From Sanguibacter keddieii (GTDB taxonomy: Bacteria; Actinomycetota; Actinomycetes; Actinomycetales; Actinomycetaceae), in NCBI RefSeq assembly GCF_001064145.1, contig NZ_JVOJ01000032.1:82927-146926 (forward strand): a DNA stretch of 64,000 nucleotides, read 5' to 3'. Made by a program: the position numbers and the translations under genes. The notes under the pieces were generated by a model. The model made no database searches. It saw nothing but the letters and a program-made list of their open reading frames with translations, and was not told the origin of the DNA. Shown piece after piece: positions 4,423-20,358 of the stretch (position 1 is its first letter; each line of letters starts with the position of its first letter).

Positions 4423-6096
4423 CTACAGGCCGATAATCTCGGCAAAAGCTCCCTTAATTGCCTCGAGGCGCTCGCGCGCCTGCTCCCAGGGCACCGGCTC
4501 GCCCTCGGTGACCGGCAGGATCACCTCGAGGTAGCACTTGAGCTTGGGCTCGGTGCCCGAGGGGCGCGCGATGACGCGGTCCCCCGCCTCGGTGAGCACC
4601 AGGACGCCGTCCGTGGGCGGCAGGCCACCGTACCCCTGCGACAGGTCCGAGACCTCGACGACGGGAGAACCGGCAAGAACGCTCGGCGGCTGGGCACGCA
4701 GGCGCGCCATGCCGCTCGCGATCTGCTCGATCTCCTCGACGCGGAAGGTCAGCGGCGAGCTCACGTGCAGGCCGTGCAGACGCGCCAGGCGCTCCAGCTC
4801 GTCCCACACGCTGCGTCCCTGCGCCTTGAGCGCGGCCACCAGGGAGGCGGCGACGACCGAGGTCGCGATACCGTCCTTGTCGCGCACATGGGCGGGGTCG
4901 GGGCAAAAGCCGATGGCCTCCTCGTAGCCGAAGCCGAGGCCCGGGGCGCGGGCGATCCACTTAAAGCCCGTGAGCGTCGTGTGATGCTCCAGGCCGTGGG
5001 CGCGGGCGATGCGCGAGAGCAGGCGCGAAGACACGATCGAGTTCGCGAGCGAGCCCTTCATGCCGCGCGAGGCCAGGAACTCACCCAGCAGCGAGCCGAT
5101 CTGGTCGCCGCTCAGCGGACGCCATCCCGTCTCCGAGGTGGGGTCGGGCACCGCGAGCGCGCAGCGGTCCGCGTCGGGGTCGACCGCGATGATGAGGTCG
5201 GCCCCCTGCTCGCGCGCCTGCTCGATCGCCATGTCGAGGGCGCCGGCCTCTTCGGGGTTGGGGAAGGGCACGGTCGGGAAGTCCGGATCGGGATCGGCCT
5301 GCGCCGCCACGAGGGAGACGTGAGAGAAACCGGCCTCAGACAGGACACGCGAGGTGATCGCAGCGCCCACGCCGTGCATGGCGGTGAGCACGATGCGCAG
5401 GTCCTCGCGCACCGAGGCCTCACCCGAGGCCAGGGCGGACGCGCAGGCCACGTACTCCTCGCGCGGATCCACGGCCTCAACAAGGTCGTCGCTCATCGGG
5501 ACCTCGTCCGCGGGCGGGGCAGCCTCGATGGCCGCCGCGATCTCCGCGTCGAAGGGCGGGACGATCTGGACGCCGCGCCCGTCGCCCTGCGCGACGGTGC
5601 CGCCCAGGTAGACCTTGTAGCCATTGTCCGGGGCGGGGTTGTGGGAGGCGGTCACCATGACGCCCGCGTCCGCATCGTAGTGGCGCACCGCGAAGGAGGT
5701 CAGCGGAGTCGGGTTGGCCTGGGGCAGCGCGAGGACACGCACGCCGGCGGCGGAGGCCACGCGGCAGGCAGCCGTGGCGAACTCGGAGGACCCGTAGCGG
5801 GCGTCGCAGCCAACCACCAGCGTGGGCGTGCCAGTTGCGTGGCGCTTGACAACCTCGCACAGGCCGGCGGTCGCGCGGATGACGACCGCGAGATTCATGC
5901 GCGACTCCCCCGGACCCACGACGCCTCGCAGGCCGGCTGTGCCGAACTGGAGGGGGCCGTTCATGGCCGCACCCACGCGGGCCACCGCCTCCTCGTCGCC
6001 ACGCTGTGCGGCCTCAATGTCGGCGCTCAGGGCCGAGGCTGTGGCGGGGTCAGGGTCGTGGCTCGCCCACTGGCGGGCGCGCTCGAGCAGCTCCAT
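4423..6096 (-). CDS. Phospho-sugar mutase, PGM2-like (candidate phosphopentomutase)
   Basis: A 557-residue alpha-D-phosphohexomutase. It has the phosphoserine loop VTASHNPAPDNGYK, the metal-binding loop DPDADRCA, the sugar-specificity loop GYEEAIGF and the phosphate-binding tail RPSGTEPKLKCYLE. The EEAIGF form is that of the PGM2 branch, whose human member prefers pentose phosphates. It is the last gene of the nucleoside block, 5 nt after deoC, and no deoB-type phosphopentomutase is present. I therefore infer that it converts (deoxy)ribose 1-phosphate, released by the phosphorylases, into the 5-phosphate used by DeoC. The family is certain; the pentose preference is inference. A GGAGG site precedes the ATG. 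Confidence 0.9.
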   Translation of the reverse strand: MELLERARQWASHDPDPATASALSADIEAAQRGDEEAVARVGAAMNGPLQFGTAGLRGVVGPGESRMNLAVVIRATAGLCEVVKRHATGTPTLVVGCDARYGSSEFATAACRVASAAGVRVLALPQANPTPLTSFAVRHYDADAGVMVTASHNPAPDNGYKVYLGGTVAQGDGRGVQIVPPFDAEIAAAIEAAPPADEVPMSDDLVEAVDPREEYVACASALASGEASVREDLRIVLTAMHGVGAAITSRVLSEAGFSHVSLVAAQADPDPDFPTVPFPNPEEAGALDMAIEQAREQGADLIIAVDPDADRCALAVPDPTSETGWRPLSGDQIGSLLGEFLASRGMKGSLANSIVSSRLLSRIARAHGLEHHTTLTGFKWIARAPGLGFGYEEAIGFCPDPAHVRDKDGIATSVVAASLVAALKAQGRSVWDELERLARLHGLHVSSPLTFRVEEIEQIASGMARLRAQPPSVLAGSPVVEVSDLSQGYGGLPPTDGVLVLTEAGDRVIARPSGTEPKLKCYLEVILPVTEGEPVPWEQARERLEAIKGAFAEIIGL

Positions 6097-6101
6097 CGTC
6101 T

Positions 6102-6755
6102 TTAGTCCTCCAGTCCCGCCAGGATAGCGTTGGTTGCAGACACTCCCAGGCGGGAGGCACCGGCCTCAATCATTGCCAGGGCGCTCTGCGCGTCTCGGAT
6201 GCCGCCCGAGGCCTTGACCCCCAGGGCGTCGCCGACCGTGGCGCGCATGAGCGCGACCGCGTGGGTCGAGGCGCCGCCCGCGGGATGGAAACCCGTCGAG
6301 GTCTTGACGAAGTCCGCGCCCGCCGCCATCGAGGCCGTGCAGGCGGCGACGATCTCGTCGTCCGTCAGAGCGGCGGACTCGATGATGACCTTGAGGATGC
6401 GCGGGGCGGGGACGACGCGGCGCACGGCCGCGATCTCCTCCTCGAGCTCACGAAGGCGCGAGTCCTTGAGCAACTCGATGTTGATGACCATGTCGATCTC
6501 GTCCGCACCGTCGGCGACGGCCTGGGCGGCCTCGAAAGCCTTGACCTGGGGCTTGACCGCACCCGACGGGAAGCCGACCACGCAGGCGACCTTCAGGCCC
6601 TCGGGAACGTCCAGGGGCAGCATCGAGGGGGACACGCACACCGAGAAGGTGCCGGCCGCGGCACCCTCCTCGACGATGCGGGCAACGTCCGCCCGGGTGG
6701 CCTCGGGCTTGAGGATCGTGTGGTCGATCATCGCGGCCACATCACGCTTGTTCAT
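6102..6755 (-). CDS. deoC: Deoxyribose-phosphate aldolase
   Basis: Splits 2-deoxyribose 5-phosphate into glyceraldehyde 3-phosphate and acetaldehyde, the last step of deoxynucleoside breakdown. The 217-residue protein starts [10 protein letters not shown], contains the Schiff-base lysine region in [10 protein letters not shown] (Lys in VKTSTGF) and ends with KASGGIRD, all hallmarks of DeoC. The longer frame would begin inside the stop of the upstream phosphorylase; the ATG at 6755 with AAGAAAG seven bases upstream is preferred. It sits 20 nt downstream of deoD and 5 nt upstream of the mutase, so the three are one transcript. Confidence 0.95.
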
Positions 6756-6775
6756 AAAACTACTTTCTTGTCGCA

Positions 6776-7483
6776 TCACAGCTGGGCCAGGGGCAGGGCC
6801 AGCTCCATCATGGTGGTAAAGGACGTCTGACGCGCCTGAGCGTCGGTGGCCTCGCCCGTGACCAGGGAGTCCGAGACCGTGAAGATACCCACGGCCTCGA
6901 CGCCCGCGTGGGCGGCGGTCGCGTACAGACCCGCGGACTCCATCTCGACCGCGAGCACGCCCATGCGCTGCCAGGCCTCGTTGAAGGTCGGGTTCGCGTT
7001 GTAGAACGTGTCAGAGGAGAGGATGTTGCCTACGTGGATAGGAACGCCCGCCTCGCGGGCGCGGCGCACCACATCGTCAATGAGGCGGAAGGAACCGATC
7101 GGGGCGTAGGAGCCGGGGATCTGGTACTGATCGAGGAACGCCGAGTTCGAGCACGCGGCCTGGGCGACCACGACGTCGTACAGGTTGACGTCTGGCTGCA
7201 GAGCGCCGCACGTGCCCACGCGCACGAGGCGCGTGCAGCCGAACTCGTGGATCAGCTCGTGGGCGTACAGCGAGATCGAGGGAATGCCCATGCCCGACCC
7301 CATCACGGATACCGGTGTGCCGCGGTAGGTGCCGGTGTAGCCCAGCATGTTGCGCACGGCGTTGAACTGCTGGGCGTCCTCCAGGAAGGTCTCGGCGATG
7401 AACTTCGCGCGCAGCGGGTCTCCGGGCAGGAGGATCGTCGGCGCGATGGGAGCGGTGGGGTTGATGTGCGGTGTCGAGCGCAT
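6776..7483 (-). CDS. deoD: Purine-nucleoside phosphorylase, DeoD type
   Basis: Phosphorolysis of purine (deoxy)nucleosides to free base and (deoxy)ribose 1-phosphate. The 235-residue length, the N-terminal [14 protein letters not shown], the GTCGALQ and the late [10 protein letters not shown] stretch identify the hexameric DeoD class (E. coli type) of the nucleoside phosphorylase-I family. The ATG at 7483 has a perfect AGGAGG; the longer frame lacks one. A 112-bp gap upstream, holding a candidate operator, separates it from the regulator gene, so deoD-deoC-mutase may also be driven from an internal promoter. Confidence 0.95.
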
Positions 7484-7568
7484 GTGTCCTCCTGTGGTGT
7501 CGAGGAGCCCGGGGCTCCGTCGAGGCTTCATTACCCTTGTCGCAAGGCTATGCCGTGCAATTGAAATG

Positions 7569-7595
7569 TGTCAATGAGTGGTTTGACAAATGTTC
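7569..7595 (-). promoter_or_regulatory. Candidate operator/promoter upstream of deoD
   Basis: TGTCAA (7569-7574) and TTGACA (7583-7588) form an inverted repeat with an 8-bp spacer. Overlapping it, TGACAAATGTTC (7584-7595, plus strand) is identical to a 12-mer upstream of the Bmp lipoprotein gene. On the minus strand, TTGACA itself would serve as a -35 box, although the -10 box is poor. The site directly abuts the stop codon of the regulator gene. Confidence 0.55.
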
Positions 7596-8579
7596 TCATC
7601 CGCTTGGAGTGCTATCACGCACCCCGCGCGGGGTTGCCCCACGCGGCCGTTCCAGCAGCGCGAGAGCCAGGCCGTGGTCGACCACCAGATGCGTGGCCAA
7701 CCCCATGTGAAGCGCCGTGCCCAGCGCCTCCGCTTTCACACGCCCGCCGGCAACGAGCACCCGCACAGGGCGAGAGCGCAGCTCGTCGAGCGTAATGCCG
7801 ACCGTCCTGCGGTCGACCGACGCCAGGGCGACGTCGCCCTCGCGCGTGAAAAATCGCGAGCACGCGTCCCCGACCGCGTCGCGCATGAGCGCCTCCACCT
7901 CGTCGTCCTCGAGCTGTCCGAGGTTGAGTAATAGGGCCTCACGTCCGAGGGAGCCAACGGTAAACACCGCCACGTCCACCCCGCGCCCTTCCTCCAGGAT
8001 CCGCTCGATCGACCGGTCGCGGCGCACGATCGAGAGCATCGCGGTGTCCTGGAAAATGACGGGCAGCGGCAGGTAGCGCGGCTCCGCGCCGAAGGCCTCA
8101 CAAAAGGAACGCATGATCTCAAAATCGTGCGTCGCCCTCTCAGAGAAGGACGCCCCACCCTTGAGCTGGACGACGCGCACGCCCACGCGCGGGGCGCGGG
8201 TCAGGTGGGCTGCGAGCGCGCTCATCGTGCGCCCCCAGGAGATCCCGACGCTCATGCCGTCGCGCACGAGCTGAGTCACCACATCCGCACCGACGCGGCC
8301 GACCTGCTCGATGGCCCCGCCCTCGGTCATGTCGGGGCCGTGGGCGACGCGCGCGCAGGCCAGGCCGAAGCGCCTCTCCAGCCGCAGGGCGATCTCCGAG
8401 GCATCCTCGCGCGGGTCGTGGATCTCGATGGTCACGAAGCCTCGCTCGCGGCCGTGAGCGAGGAGTTTGGCGATCGTGGGGCGCGACAGGCCCATGCGGG
8501 TGGCGACCTCGGCCTGGCTGAGGCCGTGCTGGTAGTAGAGCTTGACCGCCTCGATCGACTGTTCGTCGCGCCGTTCCAC
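7596..8579 (-). CDS. SorC/DeoR-type sugar-phosphate-responsive transcriptional regulator
   Basis: A 327-residue regulator: N-terminal helix-turn-helix (YYQHGLSQAEVATRMGLSRP, residues about 15-34) and a C-terminal sugar-phosphate-binding domain of the SorC family (VGISWGRTMSALA and DVAVFTVGSLG). Bacillus subtilis DeoR, the repressor of dra-nupC-pdp, belongs to this family and responds to deoxyribose 5-phosphate. Its position between deoA and deoD makes it the obvious local regulator of nucleoside catabolism. The GTG start has AGGAGGA before it. The gene lies inside the operon it would control, giving autoregulation. Ligand and sites are inferred. Confidence 0.85.
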   Translation of the reverse strand: MERRDEQSIEAVKLYYQHGLSQAEVATRMGLSRPTIAKLLAHGRERGFVTIEIHDPREDASEIALRLERRFGLACARVAHGPDMTEGGAIEQVGRVGADVVTQLVRDGMSVGISWGRTMSALAAHLTRAPRVGVRVVQLKGGASFSERATHDFEIMRSFCEAFGAEPRYLPLPVIFQDTAMLSIVRRDRSIERILEEGRGVDVAVFTVGSLGREALLLNLGQLEDDEVEALMRDAVGDACSRFFTREGDVALASVDRRTVGITLDELRSRPVRVLVAGGRVKAEALGTALHMGLATHLVVDHGLALALLERPRGATPRGVRDSTPSG

Positions 8580-8615
8580 GATTCCTCCTCCCCGTGCGCT
8601 CGCCGCTGGCTGCCT

Positions 8616-9902
8616 TTAGGACACCGTCTCCAGGACGACGCTGCGCGGCTCGGGGGTCACCCCGTCGGCGATCTCGATGGCACCGGAGAGGGACTCCAGG
8701 GCGCGCTCGATGCGCCACTCGTCGTCGGTGTGGAGCGTGAGCAGGGGCTGGCCCGCCGCGACGGTGTCGCCCGGCTTGGCGTGGATTTCAATGCCGGCGC
8801 CCGCCTGCACGGGATCCTCCTTGACGGCTCGGCCAGCGCCCAGCCTCCACGAGGCCACGCCCACGGACAGGGCGTCCATGCCGACCACGGTTCCCTGGGC
8901 CTCGGCGAGGACCTGGTGGGTGTGCGCGGCGCGCGGCAGCGCGGCGTCCGGGTCTCCGCCCTGCTCGCGAATCATCGCACGCCAGCGGTCCATCGCGCGC
9001 CCGTCCGCCAGGGCGGCCTCCACGTCGGCGTCGCTCACCCCCGCGAGGTCGAGCATGTTGCGCGCGAGCTCGCACGTCAGCTCGACGACGTCGCGGGGGC
9101 CGCCTCCGGCGAGGACCTCGACGGATTCCTCCACCTCGAGGGCGTTGCCGATCTTGCGCCCCAACGGTACAGACATGTCGGTGAGGAGGGCGCGCGTGGC
9201 GACCCCCGCGTCGCGCCCGAGATCGACCATCGTGCGGGCGAGCTCACGCGCGGCGTCCAGGTCCTTCATGAAGGCACCCGATCCGACCTTGACGTCCAGG
9301 ACGAGGGCTCCCGTCCCCTCTGCGATCTTCTTGCTCATGATGGAGCTGGCGATCAGCGCGATCGACTCGACGGTCGAGGTGATGTCTCGCAGGGCGTAGA
9401 GCTTCTTGTCCGCGGGTGCCAGGCCCGAGCCCGCCGCGCAGATGACTGCGCCGCACCCCTGCCCCAGCTGGGTCATGATCTCGTCGTTGCTCAGCTGCGC
9501 GCGCCACCCGGGGATCGCCTCGAGCTTGTCGAGGGTGCCGCCCGTATGCCCCAGGCCTCGGCCCGACAGCTGCGGGACGGCCACGCCGAAGCACGCGACC
9601 AGCGGGGCCAGGGGCAGCGTGATCTTGTCGCCCACGCCGCCCGTGGAGTGCTTGTCCGCCGTCGGCTTGCCGATGCCGGAGAAGTCCATGCGCGCCCCCG
9701 AGCGGATCATCGCGTCCGTCCAGCGGGCGATCTCGCCCCGGTCCATGCCGCGCAGGAAGATCGCCATCGCCAGGGCGGCCATCTGCTCATCCTTGATGAC
9801 GCCCTTCGTGTAGGCGTCGATCGTCCAGTCGATCTGGTCGGGGGTGAGCACTCCCCCGTCTCGCTTGACGCGAATGATGTCAACGGCATCAAAGAGAGCC
9901 AT
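8616..9902 (-). CDS. deoA: Pyrimidine-nucleoside (thymidine) phosphorylase
   Basis: Phosphorolysis of thymidine, deoxyuridine and possibly uridine. The 428-residue protein carries the phosphate-binding KHSTGGVGDK and the family signature SGRGLGHTGGTLDKLE, with the usual three-domain length. Because the cluster handles all pyrimidines after cytidine deamination, a broad pyrimidine-nucleoside phosphorylase activity (Pdp-like) is equally possible. The ATG lies 14 bp inside the end of cdd, so the two are translationally linked. The regulator gene follows after 36 bp. Confidence 0.95.
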   Translation of the reverse strand: MALFDAVDIIRVKRDGGVLTPDQIDWTIDAYTKGVIKDEQMAALAMAIFLRGMDRGEIARWTDAMIRSGARMDFSGIGKPTADKHSTGGVGDKITLPLAPLVACFGVAVPQLSGRGLGHTGGTLDKLEAIPGWRAQLSNDEIMTQLGQGCGAVICAAGSGLAPADKKLYALRDITSTVESIALIASSIMSKKIAEGTGALVLDVKVGSGAFMKDLDAARELARTMVDLGRDAGVATRALLTDMSVPLGRKIGNALEVEESVEVLAGGGPRDVVELTCELARNMLDLAGVSDADVEAALADGRAMDRWRAMIREQGGDPDAALPRAAHTHQVLAEAQGTVVGMDALSVGVASWRLGAGRAVKEDPVQAGAGIEIHAKPGDTVAAGQPLLTLHTDDEWRIERALESLSGAIEIADGVTPEPRSVVLETVS

Positions 9903-10344
9903 CGTGTTCTTCTTTCTCTTCCGACGAGGCCGGGGCTGCCTGGGCGACGCTCGACAGGTCGTGGGGTCCGAACGCGCCGGGCAGCACCTCGGTCATGGGC
10001 GCGACACCGTCAGGCATGAGGACCAGGCAGGACGGCCCACCGTGCTCGTAGATGAGCTGGCGGCAACGCCCGCACGGGGCCACCGGCTCCTCGTTGCCGT
10101 TGACGGCGACGACCGCGACGAGGGTGCCGCCGCCGGAACGGATAAGGTCGGAGACCATGCCACACTCGGCGCACAGGGTGACGCCGTAGCCCGCGTTTTC
10201 GACGTTGCAGCCGCTGACAAGCCAGCCGTCTGCCGTCAGGCCCGCGGCACCCACGGGGAAGTTCGAGTAGGGGCAGTAGGCGTGCTTCATGGCCTCGATG
10301 GCCTCGGCCAGCAGGTCGTCCCAGTCAATATCTGTTGGATCCAT
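9889..10344 (-). CDS. cdd: Cytidine deaminase
   Basis: Zinc enzyme that turns (deoxy)cytidine into (deoxy)uridine so that the phosphorylase can act. Zinc ligands and catalytic Glu are in TLCAEC and PCGRC; YCPYSNFPVGAA and GCNVENAGYG are family hallmarks. I use ATG 10344 (151 residues), which has AAGTGAG seven bases upstream; a GTG four codons earlier would overlap the permease stop. The last 20 residues or so, rich in Ser, Glu and Lys, extend past the normal fold and overlap the start of deoA by 14 bp. Confidence 0.94.
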   Translation of the reverse strand: MDPTDIDWDDLLAEAIEAMKHAYCPYSNFPVGAAGLTADGWLVSGCNVENAGYGVTLCAECGMVSDLIRSGGGTLVAVVAVNGNEEPVAPCGRCRQLIYEHGGPSCLVLMPDGVAPMTEVLPGAFGPHDLSSVAQAAPASSEEKEEHDGSL

Positions 10345-10352
10345 GCGGATTC

Positions 10353-11633
10353 TCACTTCACGTAGGGGATGTTCTCAGCGGCGGGGGCACGCGACTTGCC
10401 GACGAATCCAGCAACGGCCACGATCGTGACCACGTAGGGGATCATCGAGACGAGGTCGGCAGGGATCGCGGGCTCGATATTGGGCAGCATGCGCGCCAGG
10501 GCCTGCGCGAATCCGAACATGACGGCCGCACCCATAGCACCCAGCGGGTTCCACTTGCCCAGGATCATGGCGGCTAGGGCGATGTAGCCGTTACCCGCGG
10601 AAATGTTGTCCGTGAACGCCAGGCCGGAACCGATCGTGAAGAACGCGCCGCCCAGGCCAGCGAAGGACGACCCCAGGATCGTGTTGAGGGTGCGCGTACG
10701 TCCCACGTTGATGCCCACCGTGTCGGCGGCGCGCGGGTGTTCACCGCAGGCCCTCAGCCGCAGGCCCCACCGGGAGCGGAACAGGAAGAAGGACAGTGCG
10801 ATGACGGCCGCGTACATGAGGTACACGAGGATCGACTGGTTGAACAGAACCGGGCCGATGACCGGGATCTCCGAGAGCAGCGGAATCTTGATCTTGAACA
10901 GCGAGAACTGGTCGGTGTTCAGGCTCTCCCGGGCATCCTTCATGATCGTGCCGTAGAAGAACGTCGTCAGGCCCAGGGCCAGGACGTTCAGGACGACGCC
11001 GACGATGATCTGATCCACCCCGTACTTGACGGAGAAGATCGCCAGGAGGGACCCCAGGAGGGCACCCGCGAGAGGAGCCGCGACGAGGCCCGCGTAGGGG
11101 GTCTGGAAGTACGAGGCCGCCATGACGCCCGCGAAGGCGCCGACCAGGAGATCGCCCTCGATCGCGATGTTAACGACGCCGACGCGCTCCGAGATGACGC
11201 CCGAGAGGGAGCCGAAGATGAGCGGCGTCGAGATCGCCACGGTGGACACAAGCGTCGAGGTCAGGGTGACGACGCCCGTCGAACCGGAGCCCGCGTAGAA
11301 CAGGAATCCCAGGATCGTGGACAGCCCGACGACGGCCATCTCGCCGACGCGTGCCCACGCGGGTTGCTCTACCCGCCGCAGGGTCACGATAATCGTCCAC
11401 GCGGTGATCGCGATCGACGCCGCGGCAAGCACCCACACGACAGGCGCGCCCGCGGTGACGATGTCGGGAATCGAGTAGGACTGCGAGTTGTCGTTCAGGC
11501 GCAGGGTCATGTCCCCGCGCGCGGTGGCCGCGAAGACCACGAGCAGCACACAGGCCGCCACGTAGATGCCGGGAAGCTTCCACGAGCGCTTCGCCTCGAC
11601 CTGAGTAACGACGGTGGACTCACTTGTGCTCAT
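10353..11633 (-). CDS. Nucleoside ABC importer permease, second subunit
   Basis: A 426-residue BPD_transp_2-family permease, the class found in Bmp/Pnr/Nup nucleoside importers (YufQ, RnsD, NupC of Lactococcus). The stretch GVVNIAIEGDLLVGAF is the conserved motif of this class. About ten hydrophobic helices are present, with a long N-terminal part before the conserved core. ATG 11633 has AGGGGA upstream and overlaps the end of the first permease by 14 bp; cdd follows after 8 bp. It forms the heterodimeric channel with the preceding permease. Confidence 0.9.
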   Translation of the reverse strand: MSTSESTVVTQVEAKRSWKLPGIYVAACVLLVVFAATARGDMTLRLNDNSQSYSIPDIVTAGAPVVWVLAAASIAITAWTIIVTLRRVEQPAWARVGEMAVVGLSTILGFLFYAGSGSTGVVTLTSTLVSTVAISTPLIFGSLSGVISERVGVVNIAIEGDLLVGAFAGVMAASYFQTPYAGLVAAPLAGALLGSLLAIFSVKYGVDQIIVGVVLNVLALGLTTFFYGTIMKDARESLNTDQFSLFKIKIPLLSEIPVIGPVLFNQSILVYLMYAAVIALSFFLFRSRWGLRLRACGEHPRAADTVGINVGRTRTLNTILGSSFAGLGGAFFTIGSGLAFTDNISAGNGYIALAAMILGKWNPLGAMGAAVMFGFAQALARMLPNIEPAIPADLVSMIPYVVTIVAVAGFVGKSRAPAAENIPYVK

Positions 11634-12807
11634 CGGCGTTCCCCTTTCGCGTATTAGCCGCGAGCGCACGGGCATCGGGCAGATGGAACAGCCAGCGCAC
11701 AAGCGCAGGCGCTGCGATCAGCAGAACGATGACCGACTGCAGGATGAGGATCATGTCGATCGGCACACCCTTGGCCTGCATCGTGTAACCGCCCGCCTTG
11801 AAGGCACCGAAGAGGAGCCCCGCGCCGAAGGTTCCCCACGTCTTGTTGCGGCCCAGGAGGGCCACCGTGATCGCGTCGAAGCCGATCGAACCGGCCACGT
11901 CACGCGAGACGTACCCGATGGTCCCCAATGCCTCGTTCGCCCCGGCCAGGCCGAGGAACGCGCCCGAGAGAACCATCGTGATCGCCGTGATGCGCTCGAC
12001 CGAGATACCGGCCGTGCGGGCGGCTGCCGCGTTCGCGCCGACCGCGCGGATCTGGAAGCCCAGCGTGGATCGCTCGATCAGCCACCAGAAGAGGCCCAGC
12101 GCGACGATGGCGACCAGGAAACCGACGTGCAGCTTGAAGGGGGCGGGAAGCAGCCGCACGAGCGCCGCACTGTCCGCGACCTTCGGAGTCACCGGCTGAT
12201 TCGTTCCGGGCACCTGCCATGCCTTCTGCGCGAGCGTGTATCCCAAGCCCAGCGTCGCAATCGAGTTGAGCATGATCGTCACGATCACCTCGTTCGCGCC
12301 CGTCTTCGCCTTCAGCACGCCCGCGATGCCGCCGTAGAGGCCGCCCGCAATCACCGCGACGAGGAGGGCCACCAGCGTGTGCAAAACCGGCGGCAGGCTC
12401 ACAGCAAAGCCCACCCACACGGCCGCGAGCGCTCCGACGATGATCTGGCCGTTGCCACCGATGTTGAACAGGCCGGCTCGGAAACCGAGCGCCAGGCCCA
12501 GGCCCGAAATAATCAGCGGGATCGAATAGAAGAGAGAGTCCGTCAGCGGCTTGATCATGCGAACGGCGTTCGCCGCGTTCGGGTCCACGATGGAGCCGCG
12601 GAACATCGCATAGTAGGCATCCAGAACGGATGCACCCGACAGCGCGATGAGGATCGCGCCGATCGCGAAGGCGATGAGGACGGCCAGCACCGAGACAAAC
12701 CACTGGGAGCCAAGGATCCGGGTGAGGACGGCCAGCACCGAGACAAACCACCGCGAGCCAAGGATCCGGGTGACGACACCCGGCCTCCTACTCGTGCGCG
12801 CGCTCAT
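11620..12807 (-). CDS. Nucleoside ABC importer permease, first subunit (with N-terminal duplication)
   Basis: A 395-residue permease of the same class (YufP/RnsC/NupB-like), with FRAGLFNIGGNGQIIVGA as its conserved motif. Its N-terminus is odd: a 16-residue block containing RILGSRWFVSVLAVL occurs twice in tandem, encoded by a 48-bp direct repeat, so the first membrane segment is preceded by a second copy of itself. The start overlaps the ATPase stop (ATGA) and the end overlaps the second permease by 14 bp. The rest of the protein looks intact. Confidence 0.9.
   Translation of the reverse strand: MSARTSRRPGVVTRILGSRWFVSVLAVLTRILGSQWFVSVLAVLIAFAIGAILIALSGASVLDAYYAMFRGSIVDPNAANAVRMIKPLTDSLFYSIPLIISGLGLALGFRAGLFNIGGNGQIIVGALAAVWVGFAVSLPPVLHTLVALLVAVIAGGLYGGIAGVLKAKTGANEVIVTIMLNSIATLGLGYTLAQKAWQVPGTNQPVTPKVADSAALVRLLPAPFKLHVGFLVAIVALGLFWWLIERSTLGFQIRAVGANAAAARTAGISVERITAITMVLSGAFLGLAGANEALGTIGYVSRDVAGSIGFDAITVALLGRNKTWGTFGAGLLFGAFKAGGYTMQAKGVPIDMILILQSVIVLLIAAPALVRWLFHLPDARALAANTRKGNADEHK
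12675..12770. repeat. 48-bp tandem duplication inside the permease gene
   Basis: Two adjacent 48-bp units (12675-12722 and 12723-12770) differ at only a few bases (cactgggagcc against caccgcgagcc). Being a multiple of three, the repeat keeps the reading frame and doubles a 16-residue block at the N-terminus of the first permease. Confidence 0.93.
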
Positions 12808-14369
12808 TGTTCCTCCTTTCGAGGCGCCCCGGCGTCCCCAGCGGATCCCGAGGAAGCCGCCACGGCCTCGTCGAGGGGGACGCCGGCCATCATGAGGCCG
12901 AGGACGTCACGGCCCGTGTCCGCCGGGACGACGCCGACAATGCGACCGCGGTACATGACGGCGATGCGGTCGGCAAGCGAGACGACCTCGTCGAGCTCCG
13001 AGGAGATGAGCAGGACCGCGCAGCCCTGGTCCCGCACGTCCACGATCCTGCGGTGAATGAACTCGATCGAGCCGACGTCGACTCCGCGCGTTGGCTGATT
13101 GGCGACCAGCAGCGTCAGGTCGCGCGACATCTCACGGGCGACGACCACCTTCTGCTGATTGCCACCCGACAGGGAGGAGACCGGGTCCTCGATCGACGTC
13201 AGACGAATGTCGTATTCCGTCTCCTTCTCACGGGCGTTGCGCGCGATCGCGCCGCGCTTGAGCGAGCCCGCAGCCGAGAAGGATGAGGAGCGGAACTGGT
13301 CGAGCACCAGGTTGTCCGCGATCGAAAACGAGGCGATGATGCCGTCCGTCGAACGGTCCTCGGGGATAAAACCGACTCCTGCGTCCAGGGATTCGCGAGG
13401 CTTCGCGCGGGTAATGTCCGCGTCCTCAAGTCGGATGACCCCACTGTCGGGTGTTTGCAGGCCCAGGATTACCTCGGCCAGCTCCGTCTGTCCGTTGCCC
13501 TGCACGCCTGCGACCGCCAGGATCTCACCGCGGGGAACATCGAAGGACACGTGATCAAGCAGCGGAACACCACCCGCACCCAGCAGCGACACATCCTCGA
13601 AGGACAGGCCACCGCCCGCGGGGCGCGCGGGCTCCTTCTCCACGCGCATGAGCACCTCGCGCCCGACCATCTGCGTGGCGAGCGAGGCCTCGGAATCGCT
13701 CGGGGACGCATGCCCCACGACCCGACCGCGGCGAATGACCGTGATCTCGTCGGCCACCGCGCGCACCTCGCGCAGCTTGTGGGTGATGAACACGATCGAG
13801 GTCCCCGCGTCGGCCAGCTGACGCATGATCGTCATCAGCTCGTCCGTCTCCTGCGGGGTGAGCACAGCGGTTGGCTCATCGAGAATGAGGACCTTCGCCT
13901 GGCGCGACAGCGCCTTGACGATCTCCACCCGCTGCTGGGCCCCCACCGGTAGATCTTCGATGAGCGCATCGGGGTCCAGGTCGAAGCCGAAACGCGCCGA
14001 GACCTCGCGCACCGTCTGACGGGCGCGCTCGCGGCTGATGATCCCGGCTGGTCCTGTCGGCTCGAAGCCGAGGGCGATCGACTCGGCGACCGTGAAGACG
14101 GGGATGAGCATGAAGTGCTGGTGCACCATGCCGATGCCCGCCGCGACCGCGTCGCCGGGTCCCTTGAACGTCACGGGCTCACCGTCAATGAGGATCTGCC
14201 CCTCGTCGGGGGCGTGCATCCCGTACAGGACGTTCATGAGCGTGGACTTGCCCGCGCCGTTCTCCCCGAGCAGGGCATGAATGTGCCCCTCCTCAATCGT
14301 TAAATCGATCGAGTCGTTGGCGATGAGGGGGCCAAACCTCTTCGTGATCCCCCGCAGCTCTAATTTCAT
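12804..14369 (-). CDS. Nucleoside ABC importer ATPase (two ABC domains)
   Basis: A 521-residue protein with two fused ABC domains. The first has a full Walker A GENGAGKST, signature VGAQQRVEI and Walker B KVLILDEPTAVLTP. The second has a degenerate Walker A (GVQGNGQTE) but a good signature LSGGNQQKVVVA, as is usual for YufO/RnsB/NupA-type and sugar (RbsA-type) ATPases. The ATG at 14369 is chosen over the longer frame because the family begins here (MKLELRGITKRFG). It ends in an ATGA overlap with the first permease. An 88-bp gap with a strong hairpin separates it from the lipoprotein gene. Confidence 0.92.
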   Translation of the reverse strand: MKLELRGITKRFGPLIANDSIDLTIEEGHIHALLGENGAGKSTLMNVLYGMHAPDEGQILIDGEPVTFKGPGDAVAAGIGMVHQHFMLIPVFTVAESIALGFEPTGPAGIISRERARQTVREVSARFGFDLDPDALIEDLPVGAQQRVEIVKALSRQAKVLILDEPTAVLTPQETDELMTIMRQLADAGTSIVFITHKLREVRAVADEITVIRRGRVVGHASPSDSEASLATQMVGREVLMRVEKEPARPAGGGLSFEDVSLLGAGGVPLLDHVSFDVPRGEILAVAGVQGNGQTELAEVILGLQTPDSGVIRLEDADITRAKPRESLDAGVGFIPEDRSTDGIIASFSIADNLVLDQFRSSSFSAAGSLKRGAIARNAREKETEYDIRLTSIEDPVSSLSGGNQQKVVVAREMSRDLTLLVANQPTRGVDVGSIEFIHRRIVDVRDQGCAVLLISSELDEVVSLADRIAVMYRGRIVGVVPADTGRDVLGLMMAGVPLDEAVAASSGSAGDAGAPRKEEQ

Positions 14370-14411
14370 TCCTTCGACCTTCCCCAGCAGGTGGGTGAAC
14401 CCCCGATGCCC

Positions 14412-14449
14412 GTGTGGGGCTGGCAGCGTCACCGCCACCAGCCCCACAC
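14412..14449 (-). terminator. Intra-operon hairpin after the Bmp lipoprotein gene
   Basis: A perfect 12-bp stem (GTGTGGGGCTGG against CCAGCCCCACAC) with a 14-base loop begins 9 bp past the lipoprotein stop. There is no T-run, so it is more likely a partial terminator or an mRNA-stabilising 3' structure that keeps binding-protein levels above those of the transporter subunits. Confidence 0.7.
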
Positions 14450-14457: not shown

Positions 14458-15552
14458 TCACTTCGGGGCGTTCTGCGATTCGATGACGAGCTTGCCGGAC
14501 TTGATGTCGTCCGTGAGCTTGGTCAGGTCCGCCTTGAGCTCCGCGGACACCTTGTCGTCGAAATCGTGGAACGGGGCGATCGAGACGCCGCCGTTGGCCA
14601 GCGTGCCCACGTACGGGGTCGAGCTGAACTTGCCATTGACCGAGTCCTGGATCGCCTGCTCGACCGAGGCACCGATCTCCTTCATCACCGAGGTCAGCAC
14701 GATCGACGAGTAGTCGGGGTTGGCCTCGTACCAGTCGGAGTCAACGCCGATGATCCAGGTGTTGCCATCCGCCTTGGCAGCCGCCGCAGCGCCCAGGCCG
14801 ACCGGGCCCGCGACGGGCATGATGATGTCCGCGCCCTGCGAGATGAACTGCTGGGCCTGCTCCTTGCCGAGAGTCTGATCGTCGAAGGACTGCGTGAAGG
14901 AGCCGTTCTGCGAAGCCTTGTCCCAGCCGAGCAGCTGCACGTTCGTGCCCTTGGCCTTGTTGTAGGCCGCGACGCCGTCAGCGAAGCCATCCATGAACAC
15001 CGTCACCGAGGGGATCTGGATACCGCCGAAGGTGGCGACCTTACCGGTCTTGGTCATGCCCGCGGCCACGTAGCCTGCCAGGTAGGCGGCCTCAGCGGTG
15101 TTGAACAGCAGCGGACGCGCGTTGTCCAGCATCACCGTGTTGTTGTTACCGTCGTTGAAGCTGGAGTCGATGAGGGCGTAGTGCACGTCCTTGTTCTCCT
15201 CGGCGGAGGTGTGGATTGCCTTCTCCAGGTTGAAGCCGACGCCGATGATCAGGTTGCAGCCGTCGGACACCATGGACTCCACGTTCGGGTTGAAGTCCGC
15301 GTCCGAGTTGGACTCGGCCGTGTTGATCTGGATGCCGAGGCTGGTCTGGGAGGCCTTGAGGCCGTCGTAGGCGGACTCGTTGAAGGACTTGTCGTCCCAG
15401 CCGCCAGCGTCAGAGACCGCGCAGGCCTTGAACGAGGTGGCGTCCTTCGCCCCGCCCGACTGGCTGGTGGCGGTTCCTCCACCGCCACCACAGCCGGCCA
15501 AGGCGAGCGTTGCGACTCCCGCCGCAGCGAGGAGCTTCGTGAGGTGCTTCAT
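14458..15552 (-). CDS. Bmp/PnrA-type nucleoside-binding lipoprotein
   Basis: A 364-residue extracytoplasmic binding protein. The signal peptide ends in the lipobox LALAGC, followed by a Gly/Ser-rich linker, so it is lipid-anchored outside the membrane. GGWDDKSFNESAYDGL is the hallmark of the BmpA/PnrA/Med family, whose studied members bind purine or broad-range nucleosides. An AGGA site precedes the ATG. With the ATPase and two permeases behind it, this is a complete Bmp-NupABC-type importer, and the nucleoside-breakdown genes that follow support nucleosides as substrate. Confidence 0.92.
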   Translation of the reverse strand: MKHLTKLLAAAGVATLALAGCGGGGGTATSQSGGAKDATSFKACAVSDAGGWDDKSFNESAYDGLKASQTSLGIQINTAESNSDADFNPNVESMVSDGCNLIIGVGFNLEKAIHTSAEENKDVHYALIDSSFNDGNNNTVMLDNARPLLFNTAEAAYLAGYVAAGMTKTGKVATFGGIQIPSVTVFMDGFADGVAAYNKAKGTNVQLLGWDKASQNGSFTQSFDDQTLGKEQAQQFISQGADIIMPVAGPVGLGAAAAAKADGNTWIIGVDSDWYEANPDYSSIVLTSVMKEIGASVEQAIQDSVNGKFSSTPYVGTLANGGVSIAPFHDFDDKVSAELKADLTKLTDDIKSGKLVIESQNAPK

Positions 15553-15635
15553 GAGTGTTTTCCTCCGTTGATGTGGATTCTTCCTTGAACCGGTGGCGGC
15601 GCGGGCCGCGGATCATGTCCACGCAGCCATTGCGC

Positions 15636-15647
15636 GAACATTTGTCA
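15636..15647 (-). promoter_or_regulatory. Candidate operator upstream of the nucleoside importer operon
   Basis: TGACAAATGTTC on the minus strand, 84 nt before the lipoprotein start, is an exact 12-of-12 match to the site in front of deoD (there on the plus strand). It is AT-rich against a GC-rich background. Probable binding site for the SorC/DeoR-type regulator in this cluster. Confidence 0.55.
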
Positions 15648-15703
15648 TGATCGACTTTTACGCCTGATCCGAGTCTCCCGCGCCGCCCCTCCCCTGTCAA
15701 GGG

Positions 15704-18007
15704 CTACTTGTTTTCGCTTTGGTAACGATTGAAGCGGCGCCGGGCGAACACACCGGCAACGCCGATCGCTCCGACAAACATCGCCCCGGCCAGGCCACCC
15801 AAGTCAGCGCCCGTGCGGGCCAGGGAGCCCTTGGGAGACTTCTTGTTCTTGTGCTGTGTGGAAGGTGCCGCCTGGTCACCCGACCGGGTGTCACCCGACG
15901 CGTCAGCCGACGGGCTCGGATCGGGCGCCGAGGCCCCCGAGCAGGTCACGGGGATCGTCAGGCCATCCCCGGCCTCGACGACCGTCGCGAAGTCGGTGGC
16001 GACCGTGACGGGAACGTTCACGACCTCGCCGGCAGCCTTACCCTCACAGGCACCCACGACCGTCACGTCCACGCTCGCCTGCCCCGCGCCATCGGTCGTG
16101 ATGACCGAGGCAGCGTCGGAGGCGTGCGCATCCACGAGGGAGTTATTGACCTCGGCCACGGCCTGGGCTCCCCCGGCGCCCACCCGCACCTTCGACGTGA
16201 TGGAGGGGCCTTCGGAGAAGGACAGGCCGCGCATCGGGATCGTCACCGTCGAGCCGTCGGCGACGGGATCCGTGGGCAGGGTCAGGCCGATCGAGGACTT
16301 GGCCTCGCGCGGCGTCAGGCCGCCCGTGGCCTGGATCGAGCGGGCCGCCGCACCCGAGTGCGCGCCCAGGTAAGCGTTGAAAGAATCGCGGTCCAGGTTT
16401 CCGTTCGTCGTGGCCGCTCCCCCTCGGGTCAGGGCCTCGAACGAGTCGCCACCGGCCAGCAGGAAGGTCACGGATCCGACCGTGTACGTCGCGTCGGCCT
16501 TCAGCGGCTCACCGTTGATCGTCACCGACGTGATGCGCTCCCCGTAGGGCCTGGCCGGATCGTAGGTGTAGCGCACGTTCGAGGACAGGCCCAGCTTGAG
16601 CATGGGCCGAGAATTCTGCGAGTTCAGATCGGTCTTCCACTGCTGCTCGAGCGCGTCCTTGACGTCGGATCCCTTGAGCGTCACGTACCCCAGCTCGTTG
16701 GAGAAGGGCTCAACCTCGTAGGTCTGCGCGTAGGTGATCGTCCCGTCCTCGTTCGGCACCAGGTCGGCGCGCAGGCCGCCCGCGTTGATCATGCCGATGT
16801 CGACGCTCTTGCCGTCCGGGGTGAGGATGGTTTCGCGCAGCGAGTCGGCCACCAGATCGCCCAGCGAGGACTCGATGCCTCGGTTCGATCCCGGGTCCGT
16901 AGCCCCCTCGGGCGTCGTGAAGACGCCGCGCCTGAAGGGCTGCGTGTACCCGGTGGCGACGACGCGCTTGCCGGCTTCCTTCGAGTCGGCCTCGGCTTGA
17001 TCGACGATCGCCTGGGTGTCCGGGTCCGCGCCGCACTGGGCGACCTCGGCGGCGGGGATGAGGATCGAGTCGGCGCTGGTGACCTGCCGCGTCGCGGGGT
17101 CGATCGTCAGTCGGATCAGGCCCAGGTTGTCCGTGTAGGAACCCGACGCGATGCCCGCCAGGCGCGGGTTGGCGGAGTCGAAGGACTCCACCGAGTTGAC
17201 GTGGTCGAACTCGTAGGGCACGTGCGTGTCCCCGCCCATGAGGCCGTCGACATCCTTGCCGACCTTCGTGTAGTTGTTCTTCACGTCGTCGTCCAGCATG
17301 GCGATGACGACGTCGGCCTCTCCGCTAGTCTTCAGCTTGGCCGCCAGGGAGTTGATGCGCGCAATCGGGTCCGTGAAAGTCAGGCCCGCCGTCGTTCCGG
17401 GACTGAGCTTGTAGGGCACGTCCTGAGCGATCGCCCCAATGAAAGCGACCTTCATGCCCGAGGGCGACGTCCACACCTTGTAGTCCCCCAGGTAGGGGGT
17501 GCCATTCCCGTAGGTGCCCATGCCCTCGATGTTGGCCCCCAGATAGGGGAAGGTCGCCTGCACGAATTCGCTCGGGTTGGATCCGTCGACGCGCTGTTTG
17601 AAGACGGCCTGCCCCATGTCCAGCTCGTGGTTGCCGATCGTTGAGGCCAGCGGATTCATCGTGTTGAGAGCCGAGATGGTCGGGTTGTCCTTGAGCGCCC
17701 CAGAAATGTAGGGGGAGGCACCGATGTTGTCTCCCAGCAGGGTGAACGAGGAATTGGGGTTCGTCGCGCGCGCCTTCTTCAGGTAGCAGTTCATAGCGGG
17801 CAACCCGGCCTCGCGCACGACGCCCTTCTTGGCGACCTGCTGGATGTGCCCGTGCACGTCCGTGAGGGTGTAGAGGTCCAGGGTGATCGGCGGTGCCTCG
17901 TTGCGTGACGCATCATCCTGTGGGGCCGCGAGCGCGGCTGCGGGCAGGGAGGCCAGGGAGAGGGCGGCCGCCGAGGCGAGCGCGAGGCGAGTCCATGGTC
18001 TGTGCAT
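15704..18007 (-). CDS. Wall-anchored 5'-nucleotidase/metallophosphatase
   Basis: A 767-residue secreted enzyme that would strip phosphate from nucleotides outside the cell. Signal peptide at residues 1-28. The metallophosphatase domain shows DVHGH (50-54), GDN (92-94), GNHE (125-128) and GGDTH, the bimetal site residues. The 5_nucleotid_C domain follows (YAQTYEVEPFSNELGYVT). The C-terminus is a sorting signal: LARTG at 729-733, a hydrophobic helix and a basic tail, fitting class E sortase sites. It follows the nuclease gene by 68 bp and precedes the importer, so its nucleoside products would be imported directly. GAAAGGA precedes the ATG. Confidence 0.93.
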   Translation of the reverse strand: MHRPWTRLALASAAALSLASLPAAALAAPQDDASRNEAPPITLDLYTLTDVHGHIQQVAKKGVVREAGLPAMNCYLKKARATNPNSSFTLLGDNIGASPYISGALKDNPTISALNTMNPLASTIGNHELDMGQAVFKQRVDGSNPSEFVQATFPYLGANIEGMGTYGNGTPYLGDYKVWTSPSGMKVAFIGAIAQDVPYKLSPGTTAGLTFTDPIARINSLAAKLKTSGEADVVIAMLDDDVKNNYTKVGKDVDGLMGGDTHVPYEFDHVNSVESFDSANPRLAGIASGSYTDNLGLIRLTIDPATRQVTSADSILIPAAEVAQCGADPDTQAIVDQAEADSKEAGKRVVATGYTQPFRRGVFTTPEGATDPGSNRGIESSLGDLVADSLRETILTPDGKSVDIGMINAGGLRADLVPNEDGTITYAQTYEVEPFSNELGYVTLKGSDVKDALEQQWKTDLNSQNSRPMLKLGLSSNVRYTYDPARPYGERITSVTINGEPLKADATYTVGSVTFLLAGGDSFEALTRGGAATTNGNLDRDSFNAYLGAHSGAAARSIQATGGLTPREAKSSIGLTLPTDPVADGSTVTIPMRGLSFSEGPSITSKVRVGAGGAQAVAEVNNSLVDAHASDAASVITTDGAGQASVDVTVVGACEGKAAGEVVNVPVTVATDFATVVEAGDGLTIPVTCSGASAPDPSPSADASGDTRSGDQAAPSTQHKNKKSPKGSLARTGADLGGLAGAMFVGAIGVAGVFARRRFNRYQSENK

Positions 18008-18075
18008 GGGTGTGTTCCTTTCATCGGGGCGGCACCGAAGCCGCGTCCTGCGTGGTGGGTGTGGAGTTCGTGGTG

Positions 18076-20358
18076 TCAGCCGCGGCGGCGACGGCGGTGC
18101 GCGACGAGGATGAGCCCACCGCCGATGGCGGCGAGGAGAATCCCGATGCCGATTGCCCGGTCGGCGTCCGCACCGGTGCGCGCGAGGCCGCTCACCGCGG
18201 CAGCGCGCGTGGGTGCCTTGCGGGACGAGGCCGTGGCCGCCCTCGAGGGGACCGCCGCGGGAGACGCGGAGGGGACTGCGGCGGGTGGGGCCGCACTGGG
18301 GGCGCTGGACGGGTCAGCGGACGGGTCAGCGCTCGGCGTCGGTGCCGGGGCGTCCCCGCCGAGCAGCGTAAGCCCGATAAGCTCGGGGTTGTGGTCCGAG
18401 GAGCGGTAGGGGTTGTCCGCCTCGACCGCCAGGTGGGCGTTCATGCCGGCCCTCGAGTATTCGAAGGCGATGGATTCCTGAGCGTTGACGGCCCAGCTGG
18501 TGACGCCCGCCAGCAGCGGCTTCGCGGCCGCGTTGGCGAAAACGTGGTCGAGGGATCCGGAGCGTCCCGCGTAGACGTAGGAGGCCTCGCCCCCGCCGGA
18601 GACGCGCTCCCAGCCCGCGGCCTCGAGGGCCTTGATCGGGTCCTCCTGCGAGTAGGAGTTGAAGTCACCCACGAGCAGGGTCGGCTTGTCCGCGAATCGG
18701 GCGGCAAAGGTTGCCAGGGCGCCGGCCTGGGCGACGCGGATCGCGTTCGCGTTGCCCTGACCGTCCCCGCTGTCAACGTTGCCAGCAGGCGCTCCCTCGG
18801 GCACGGATCCCTTCGACTTGAAGTGATTGGCGACAACCACGAAGGTCGCGGGCGCGACCCTCTCGGTGGTCACACGGGCGAACTCTTGGGCGAGGGGCTG
18901 ACGCGCCAGGCCCGTGAACGCCGGGTCGTCGTGGATCAGCGAGGGGCCGACGGGGGCCACGGTCGCGGGCTTGTAAATGAAGGCGACCCGGATGACGTCC
19001 TCGGCCTCGGGCACGGCCTTAGGAGACGGCACGTACGCCCACGTTCCGGCACCCGCATCCTTGTTGAGGGCCTCGACGAGGCGCGCGAGGGACGCGTCGC
19101 GGTCCGTCCCCACCCCCACGGCGACGGGATTTTCGATCTCCTCGAGGGCGACCACGTCGGCGTCCAGGGCGTTGATCGCGGAGACGATCTTGGCCTCCTG
19201 GTTGGCGAAGGCCTCGCGCGAAAACGCGCCGCGCACCTTGCAATTCTTGGCCGTCACGAAGGCGCCCGTGCGGTCCGGGTAGCCCTTGCATCCGGCCTCG
19301 TCGACGCCCAGGTCGGAGAAGTAGTTGAGGACATTGAACGTCGCCACGCGGGTGTCGCCGCCGACCGTGGGTGCGCTCGGGCGCTCCCCGGTGATGGTCA
19401 CGGGAGAGCGGTCGGGGTGCCCGGCGACCATGGAGGTCGGCTGGAAGACAAAGGAACCGTGCCGGGGCTCGAGGACCACAGGCTTGGTGAAGGCCACGTG
19501 GTAGCCGACGCGCGCGGGCGAGCCGTTGGCCAGGTAGGCGTAGGCGGCCTCGGTGGCGGCCCCCTTCTGCAGGTTCGTGTTGGTCCCGTCGTCGAGGGCG
19601 ATGGCGCGGGCGACGTTGGCGGCCTCGTACTCGCGGGCCGCCTGCCCGGGAGCGACCACGTCCGTGGCCGAGCGCAGCGGGCTCTCACCGGGGGTGAGGG
19701 TCAGGGTGCCGTACTGGTTCGTCTGGTAGTTGTCGGTGATGGTCCACGTTCCCTGGGGTGCGAGGAGCATGGACTCGAGGGCCTCGGCCTCGTCCGGCGT
19801 GGGGACGCGGGTTGCCGGGATGGGCGTCGGTGCCTGGCATCCCTCGACCTCGCTCACGGAGGTCGCGGCCAGCTGGGTGAGGCTCTGGGGGTTGCCCTTC
19901 GCACTCGTCGCGGGGAACTCCCCCACCGTGCCGGTCACTCGCACGCAGGTGCCCGGGGCCGGGATCTCACCCTTGTTGCCCGCGTAGACGAAGATGCCGT
20001 CGGATCGAGTGCGCCCCGGCTCCCACGCGCCGCCCGATCCGGGTGTCTGGATCGTGTAGCCGTCGAGGGTCGCGCCCAGCCCGGATTCGGCGGCCGGGTA
20101 GGCGGCCGTCACGACGCCGAGAGTCGTCACGGTGGCCCCCACCATCGCGGAATCGTCGCCCTCGCCTACGGCCTGGATGTCGGGGATCGGAGTATCGACG
20201 AGGCCGGGGCGCTCCTCGCCCGATTGCGCGGCATCCACCTGAGCGGACTGGCCGGAATCAGCCTGACCCACATCGGCCGCCCAAGCGGCAGGCACAAGCC
20301 CCATCGCGGACAGCGCGAGCGCGCCGAGTACAGCTAGTGATCGTGTCCCGCACTTCAT
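18076..20358 (-). CDS. Wall-anchored ExeM/NucH-type extracellular nuclease
   Basis: A 760-residue secreted nuclease. Signal peptide ending near AAWAA, an OB-fold-like N-terminal part (GTCVRVTGTVGEF), then an endonuclease/exonuclease/phosphatase domain with all expected motifs: ATFNVLNYFSD, ALEEIEN, NHFKSKG, VGDFNSY, GSLDHVF and SSDHNPE. A Pro/Ala/Ser linker and LARTG at 725-729, hydrophobic helix and RRRRR tail give sortase anchoring like the neighbouring nucleotidase. ExeM/NucH-type enzymes degrade extracellular and biofilm DNA. It is the first gene of the block; the 277-bp upstream region holds a degenerate copy of the candidate operator. Confidence 0.93.
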   Translation of the reverse strand: MKCGTRSLAVLGALALSAMGLVPAAWAADVGQADSGQSAQVDAAQSGEERPGLVDTPIPDIQAVGEGDDSAMVGATVTTLGVVTAAYPAAESGLGATLDGYTIQTPGSGGAWEPGRTRSDGIFVYAGNKGEIPAPGTCVRVTGTVGEFPATSAKGNPQSLTQLAATSVSEVEGCQAPTPIPATRVPTPDEAEALESMLLAPQGTWTITDNYQTNQYGTLTLTPGESPLRSATDVVAPGQAAREYEAANVARAIALDDGTNTNLQKGAATEAAYAYLANGSPARVGYHVAFTKPVVLEPRHGSFVFQPTSMVAGHPDRSPVTITGERPSAPTVGGDTRVATFNVLNYFSDLGVDEAGCKGYPDRTGAFVTAKNCKVRGAFSREAFANQEAKIVSAINALDADVVALEEIENPVAVGVGTDRDASLARLVEALNKDAGAGTWAYVPSPKAVPEAEDVIRVAFIYKPATVAPVGPSLIHDDPAFTGLARQPLAQEFARVTTERVAPATFVVVANHFKSKGSVPEGAPAGNVDSGDGQGNANAIRVAQAGALATFAARFADKPTLLVGDFNSYSQEDPIKALEAAGWERVSGGGEASYVYAGRSGSLDHVFANAAAKPLLAGVTSWAVNAQESIAFEYSRAGMNAHLAVEADNPYRSSDHNPELIGLTLLGGDAPAPTPSADPSADPSSAPSAAPPAAVPSASPAAVPSRAATASSRKAPTRAAAVSGLARTGADADRAIGIGILLAAIGGGLILVAHRRRRRG

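Follow-up and report, generated by a model that had tools for sequence, protein, structure and literature searches.

The use of extracellular DNA has been ascribed, in Candidatus Izemoplasmatales (PMC8289736) and Hujiaoplasma nucleasis (PMC10470597), to DNA-degradation loci which, in the available portions of these reports, bring together genes for nucleases, phosphohydrolases and ATP-binding cassette (ABC) transporters of nucleic-acid parts. Here we analyse a comparable locus within a stretch of 64,000 nucleotides (hereafter the window; positions 82,927 to 146,926 of contig NZ_JVOJ01000032.1, labelled C32) of a genome recorded as Sanguibacter keddieii and assembled to 2.36 Mb in 61 contigs. 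Twelve genes of this locus quite probably constitute a regulon of the Schaalia/Pauljensenia branch for scavenging DNA and nucleosides, which, judged from sequence comparison, would be controlled by a DeoR-type repressor at three transcription units. The parts and the concept are already known from other DNA-degradation loci (PMC8289736, in the portion available); what the window locus adds to the two descriptions, as far as these portions extend, is sortase-type anchoring, a complete deo branch and a shared DeoR-like box.

On the regulatory side, the window shares with the deoR and dra-nupC-pdp genes of Bacillus subtilis a SorC-type DeoR, a set of deoxyribonucleoside genes and an operator of the form GAAC plus TT(T/G)AC at +21, the B. 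subtilis sequence being GAAC followed 21 bases on by TTTAC (PMC11229326, in the part available). Compared with that system as described there, the window has three boxes, an ABC importer in place of NupC and a regulon apparently reaching secreted DNA-digesting enzymes. Similarly, the anchored Gram-positive 5'-nucleotidases AdsA, Nt5e and S5nA (PMC10454023, in its available part) resemble the window nucleotidase in their signal peptide, 5_nucleotid_C domain and sortase signal, while the latter is distinguished by a LARTG signal, by the lack of a PF00149 match and by the change of two metal-ligand histidines to aspartate. The window nuclease matches the ExeM/NucH nucleases (NF033681) over the full length and above the cut-off, and differs from them in its C-terminal wall-sorting signal and its linkage to deo genes. 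Among the open-licence papers listed on extracellular DNA and nucleosides, on anchored nucleases and on DeoR/nucleoside regulons of Actinobacteria, we found, by title and abstract opening, no conserved set in which both surface enzymes carry sorting signals and a DeoR-like box reaches them, and those listed on Schaalia odontolytica DNase mention no such DNA-scavenging set.

In the scheme that we propose, a wall-anchored DNase and a nucleotidase-like enzyme would digest nucleic acid extracellularly, a Bmp-type ABC importer would take up the nucleosides, and Cdd, a pyrimidine phosphorylase and DeoD would release the base and leave (deoxy)ribose-1-phosphate. This product would be converted to the 5-phosphate by a mutase of the PGM/PMM family, whereupon DeoC would split deoxyribose-5-phosphate into glyceraldehyde-3-phosphate and acetaldehyde, in principle permitting growth on DNA. 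A SorC-type DeoR repressor encoded within the set would occupy a bipartite operator heading three transcription units and depart once deoxyribose-5-phosphate accumulates, such that successful DNA use would raise the surface enzymes. If this holds, a common mouth-type actinomycete would have its DNA use wired as one circuit that starts at the cell wall and leads into central carbon, and the repressor site would offer a direct handle for testing the use of plaque and host DNA as food by such bacteria. Relatives that have neither the regulator gene nor the boxes would then be the natural comparators, and in the enzyme group marked by the double His-to-Asp change metal use could be measured at once.

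Gene content and conservation of the locus

Profile matches identify twelve open reading frames (ORFs) on the minus strand, transcribed from 20358 to 4423 in the following order:

18076..20358, minus strand: ExeM/NucH-family extracellular endonuclease, C-terminal LARTG sorting signal (NF033681, 549.8 bits, cut-off 300)
15704..18007, minus strand: 5'-nucleotidase-like surface protein, C-terminal LARTG sorting signal (PF02872, C-terminus, alignment)
14458..15552, minus strand: Bmp-family (PnrA-like) substrate-binding lipoprotein (PF02608, E 1.9e-50; solved relatives)
12804..14447, minus strand: importer ABC ATPase (PF00005, two stretches)
11620..12807, minus strand: permease 1, BPD_transp_2 (PF02653)
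10353..11702, minus strand: permease 2, BPD_transp_2 (PF02653; translation)
9889..10356, minus strand: cytidine deaminase (NF004064, 171.2 bits, cut-off 74)
8616..9902, minus strand: thymidine/pyrimidine-nucleoside phosphorylase (NF004490, 621 bits, cut-off 269)
7596..8579, minus strand: SorC-family DeoR-type repressor (8r7y, E 3.9e-73; NF053881, 316.3 bits, under the cut-off of 420)
6776..7531, minus strand: DeoD purine-nucleoside phosphorylase (TIGR00107, 264.9 bits, cut-off 232.25)
6102..6779, minus strand: DeoC deoxyribose-phosphate aldolase (TIGR00126, 219.3 bits, cut-off 117.3)
4423..6096, minus strand: PGM/PMM-family mutase, probable phosphopentomutase (PF02878, PF02879, PF02880, PF00408)

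A first-pass annotation of this DNA had named twelve co-oriented genes in this same order, which the family matches bear out, and had read them as a pathway from DNA to central carbon, which the family assignments likewise fit. Its description of the system as self-contained went too far, as no step converting the products of the nuclease to mononucleotides was seen, and its treatment of the block as one unit is discussed below; its remark that the system suits life in DNA-rich biofilms is at most a conjecture. The mechanically called ORF of permease 2 opens at TTG, and the true start is probably an internal ATG. Co-orientation alone is a weak argument, because the same strand also carries, just upstream (20636-26733), guaB3, a gene resembling transaldolase/fructose-6-phosphate aldolase, and guaB; these three are likewise retained upstream in several related loci.

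The window nucleotidase has its nearest relatives in genomes of the Schaalia odontolytica group, to which the genome of the window is itself assigned. One of them is the complete S. odontolytica FDAARGOS_732 chromosome (L005), where the nucleotidase is 88% and the nuclease 80% identical to that of the window and the remaining ten proteins are 92-99% identical. A nucleotidase search of genome contigs yielded 53 loci, 26 of which (L002-L027) are of Actinomycetaceae type, and in 14 of these 26 the order and strand of the eight genes from the nuclease through the nucleotidase (5nt), bmp, the ATPase, the two permeases and cdd to the pyrimidine phosphorylase gene (pdp) are kept. The regulator gene sorC is present in ten of the 14 (L002-L009, L011, L022) and missing from the locus in four (L012, L013, L014, L026), in two of which, as shown, deoD follows the pyrimidine phosphorylase gene after 14 and 35 bases. 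The nuclease-nucleotidase pair stands alone in L010, and in 11 of the 26 loci neither nuclease nor bmp accompanies the nucleotidase within the stretch examined, some of these stretches being short; the opposite strand of one of the 11, L019, carries permeases, cdd, pdp and deoC. Within the window's genus (35 genomes) the nucleotidase occurs in 29 and bmp in 32 (E 1e-60 or better), and by a count of coordinates the two lie no more than 2 kb apart on one strand in 20 of the 35, the genome studied here included. The gene order is thus no chance peculiarity of one strain, a possibility that the first-pass annotation had proposed to check by this comparison, and a secreted nuclease, a nucleotidase and an importer stand together in one conserved locus, as in a DNA-degradation locus. 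Loci resembling those of Schaalia and of Actinomyces sp. ph3 are present in the records titled Xylanimonas cellulosilytica 352_XCEL (L002) and Trueperella pyogenes 331_TPYO (L014), and these two names may be wrong.

A DeoR-like box in three upstream regions

Three upstream regions of the locus carry a related element:

20420..20455, minus strand: DeoR-like box that precedes the nuclease gene and overlaps the -10-like TACACT; right half degenerate
15636..15671, plus strand: DeoR-like box between a conserved TTGACA (15695-15700) and bmp, reverse to the genes
7560..7595, minus strand: DeoR-like box in the gap between sorC and deoD, right half overlapping a -35-like TTGACA

The box consists of a GAAC-type left half and a right half TT(T/G)AC. 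Counted from the G of GAAC, the right half begins at exactly +21 in 13 of the 15 bmp and deoD sites listed (the exceptions being the deoD sites of L006 and A. bovis), which is the fixed spacing of the B. subtilis operator.

The relation between the sites was examined reciprocally. With a 12-base matrix built from the nuclease sites of other clades, about 35,000-55,000 positions being ranked, the bmp box takes rank 1-4 in all 11 sorC-bearing sequences, the window included, and the site upstream of deoD rank 1-7 in all ten that reach deoD. The best ranks in the four sorC-less loci are only 47-71 upstream of bmp and 272-320 upstream of deoD, and by this ranking comparable boxes were not found at the importer and deoD in these loci. 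Since the nuclease sites for the matrix had been chosen by eye for their resemblance to the bmp box, and the choice was therefore biased, a motif search without prior information was run on the 170 bases upstream of the nuclease in seven clade representatives. It recovered the same sites, giving TACRNTTGTMAAA at 97-110 bases before the start, with 22.9 bits at a width of 14 bases as against 15.9-17.5 in eight shuffled sets. Likewise, the same search on six bmp upstream regions alone gives TTTTACAAAWGTTC, a near reverse complement of TACRNTTGTMAAA. In the converse direction, a 16-base matrix from the bmp and deoD sites of other clades finds the bmp and deoD boxes as the two best hits in 10 of 11 sorC-bearing sequences, with one tie in L011 between the top hits and the nuclease box. 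The string ACAYTTGTCAWR occurs five times in the genome, three times at the promoters considered here, and its reversed control does not occur; the other two matches (L069, L070) have neighbouring genes without evident link to the set and were taken as chance rather than as members of the regulon.

From the shared boxes, together with their absence at the importer and deoD in the four loci without sorC, it would follow that digestion at the surface is probably under the same repression as import and catabolism, which deoxyribose-5-phosphate would lift. Several observations weigh against so wide a regulon. The right half is regular (TTTAC or TTTGC, at +20 or +21) in only three of eight nuclease sites, in one of them at +20, and a 14-base nuclease matrix separates the loci less well, with ranks of 3-9 (bmp) and 1-12 (deoD) in the presence of sorC and of 8-56 and 35-156 in its absence. 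The top hit of the nuclease matrix upstream of deoD in L011 is a site on the reverse strand, not the main box. The converse matrix fails to single out the nuclease upstream region in most loci, its match being clear only in L009 (equalled by 8 of 300 shuffles) and L011 (by 0 of 300). For the window itself, the top site lies elsewhere than the box and is equalled by 30 of 300 shuffles, and the sorC-less L012 has a fair match before the nuclease (1 of 300), L014 reaching 15 of 300. A 21-base matrix from the bmp sites alone also recognises the nuclease upstream region poorly. Finally, the sites in related genomes are not independent of one another. Because the converse matrix recognises the nuclease upstream region weakly, we grade the two parts differently: DeoR-like control of the importer and of deoD is the firmer part of the proposal, and DeoR-like control of the nuclease is likely. 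The expectation of the first-pass annotation that the surface enzymes are co-regulated with the importer and catabolic genes is to this extent favoured by a common promoter box, of which the nuclease copy is the most degenerate.

Nucleases and anchored nucleotidases of other bacteria serve in escape from DNA nets, in adenosine production and in the shaping of biofilms. The window could accordingly hold two neighbours with separate jobs, namely a DeoR-controlled deo/nucleoside set of the ordinary kind and a surface nuclease-nucleotidase pair devoted to one of these tasks and otherwise regulated. This would accord with the nuclease box being the most degenerate of the boxes, with the separation of the pair from the A. 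bovis deo cluster, and with the 11 of 26 Actinomycetaceae-type loci in which the nucleotidase has no nuclease and bmp nearby. We nevertheless consider it unlikely, given that the nucleotidase adjoins bmp in 20 of the 35 genus genomes, and that the element before the nuclease is conserved, was recovered without prior information and is present even in A. bovis, where linkage is lost.

The regulator and its distribution

Returning to the scavenging regulon, its candidate repressor aligns over residues 4-309 with the deoxyribonucleoside regulator DeoR of B. subtilis (structure 8r7y, E 3.9e-73). The homology spans both the DNA-binding and the effector domain, and the NCBIfam DeoR equivalog is matched with 316.3 bits of the 420 set as its cut-off. 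The recognition-helix sequence SRPT..LL is retained, as is the segment VVQLKGG, the lysine of which we take to bind the effector.

A search of 17 genomes for sorC gave a 93% match in S. odontolytica and a 58% match in A. bovis. In the genomes of the four sorC-less loci only a relative of 31-32% was found, and such a relative is present in S. odontolytica besides the true sorC. In A. bovis, the deo cluster and sorC are on a different contig from the nuclease-nucleotidase pair; box-like sequences precede bmp and deoD if one mismatch is allowed, and the nuclease retains its upstream element, so that regulation without linkage is possible there. To be set against this are the one in-frame TGA carried by the A. 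bovis sorC match and the frequency of chance matches at one mismatch. In a Gleimia locus (L075, about 8900-10740), a sorC relative precedes a deoC relative; the gap between them contains box-like sequences if one mismatch is allowed, and relatives of guaB and guaB3 lie upstream.

Proposed transcription units

The gap of 151 bases between the nucleotidase gene and bmp contains the conserved TTGACA (15695-15700), which recurs in 13 of the 15 bmp upstream regions shown and is replaced by TTGACG in the other two (L013, L026). A promoter-like TTGACA also stands ahead of deoD in most of the sorC-bearing loci shown, L006 and L007 lacking it. Because a consensus scan over 3000-22500 found no sigma-70 site, a point that also tells against the scheme, these elements are regarded as conserved promoter-like sequences and not as mapped promoters. 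They are sufficient, with the 151-base gap, for a single twelve-gene operon to be rejected as the default, and what the first-pass annotation had treated as one block would more plausibly comprise three transcription units: nuclease-nucleotidase, bmp to sorC, and deoD-deoC-mutase. An Rfam search of 3000-27000 at gathering thresholds detected no known RNA element in the leaders.

The proximity of the boxes to such hexamers raises the question of whether the shared element is itself a promoter feature, of the -10 or -35 kind, instead of a repressor site. At the nuclease and at deoD it does overlap -10- or -35-like hexamers. The bmp box, however, being reversed and located downstream of TTGACA with the same +21 spacing, is not merely a promoter hexamer, and the four sorC-less loci still have TTGAC(A/G) ahead of bmp and lack the box. 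A promoter feature is on these grounds very unlikely, and we retain the repressor site as the interpretation.

Surface enzymes and predicted wall anchoring

The window nuclease matches NF033681 over the whole profile (2-546 of 546). Read by eye, the N-termini of the nuclease and the nucleotidase resemble signal peptides, and their C-termini present LARTG followed by a hydrophobic stretch and a basic tail. Of the nuclease ORFs read (16, that of the window counted along with those of relatives), 15 end in a sorting signal, the exception being L008, where at about 9800-10010 the signal is out of frame. Other departures are a tandem pair of nuclease matches ahead of the nucleotidase in L013 (about 5640-9900) and a short nuclease ORF of 492 residues in L022 (about 8450-9930). 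Class E sortases prefer LAXTG. The genome encodes two sortases, one of which, on contig C31, is of class E (227.2 bits, cut-off 160), so that C-terminal signals of the LAXTG type and a sortase of class E are found together; either of the two sortases may act on the nuclease and the nucleotidase. That both surface enzymes are sortase-anchored, as had been claimed, is thus in keeping with the predicted signals.

The nucleotidase is unusual in its metal site. It matches PF02872 (5_nucleotid_C, E 9.8e-36), and no match to Pfam Metallophos (PF00149) was obtained at E 0.001. In the alignment, residues 239 and 260 are aspartate where relatives have histidine, and with 3ivd the first of them falls opposite a histidine. 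The resulting motifs LDDDV and GGDTH are present in the window and in 26 of 26 Actinomycetaceae-type loci, and histidine occupies both places in 26 of the 27 other loci, the stretch of L028 not covering them. In UshA both positions presumably furnish ligands to the same one of its two metals. The two-His metal site of the UshA/NT5E type, with HEG-like and GHTH-like motifs, was hence not found in the window enzyme, which is a further difficulty for the scheme, and since aspartate replaces the usual histidine at both ligand places we call the protein nucleotidase-like, its activity being presumed. The change is paired and invariant and therefore suggests a functional site with a different metal preference rather than a decayed one. 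A fuller version of the scheme, in which a deoxyribose-5-phosphate-sensing repressor would control, in a feed-forward DNA-foraging regulon, wall-anchored enzymes that include a two-His-to-two-Asp nucleotidase, maybe with a different metal, is put forward only tentatively.

Import and catabolism

The importer comprises a Bmp lipoprotein, an ATPase and two permeases, which is the composition of Bmp/PnrA-type nucleoside ABC importers. The solved relatives of the lipoprotein are of the Bmp/TmpC type, and Bmp/TmpC-type lipoproteins bind nucleosides, which we accordingly regard as the putative substrate. It could be argued instead that something other than nucleosides, vitamin B6 for instance, is what the importer transports, or that the set salvages bases rather than the carbon of DNA. 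The four importer proteins find their best NCBIfam matches, to the detriment of a nucleoside substrate, in models of a 'putative B6 ABC transporter', and guaB3 and guaB upstream would suit base salvage. All four B6-model scores are, however, under the cut-offs (81.9 of 400, 480.6 of 670, 144.1 of 400 and 179.6 of 465 bits), the solved relatives are Bmp/TmpC-type, and cdd, pdp, deoD, deoC and a DeoR-type regulator indicate deoxyribonucleosides, which together make these alternatives decidedly improbable.

As to the catabolic steps of the scavenging scheme, Cdd, the pyrimidine phosphorylase, DeoD and DeoC all pass curated cut-offs. DeoB, the usual phosphopentomutase, has no match in the genome, the same search being positive in 7 of 14 control genomes. 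In Thermococcus kodakarensis, a phosphopentomutase belonging to the PGM family is known (PMC11641776, in its available part), and because of this precedent and the failure to find DeoB, the PGM/PMM-family mutase of the locus is taken as the missing step and as a probable phosphopentomutase. It has a distant match to 9ix8, 'Phosphopentomutase' (E 2.1e-14), which is one of 52 matches and not the top one, and it comes after deoC in the four sorC-less loci also.

Elsewhere in the window, at 53870-57667, an ORF of 1265 residues combines choline-binding-type wall repeats with a cadherin-like domain.

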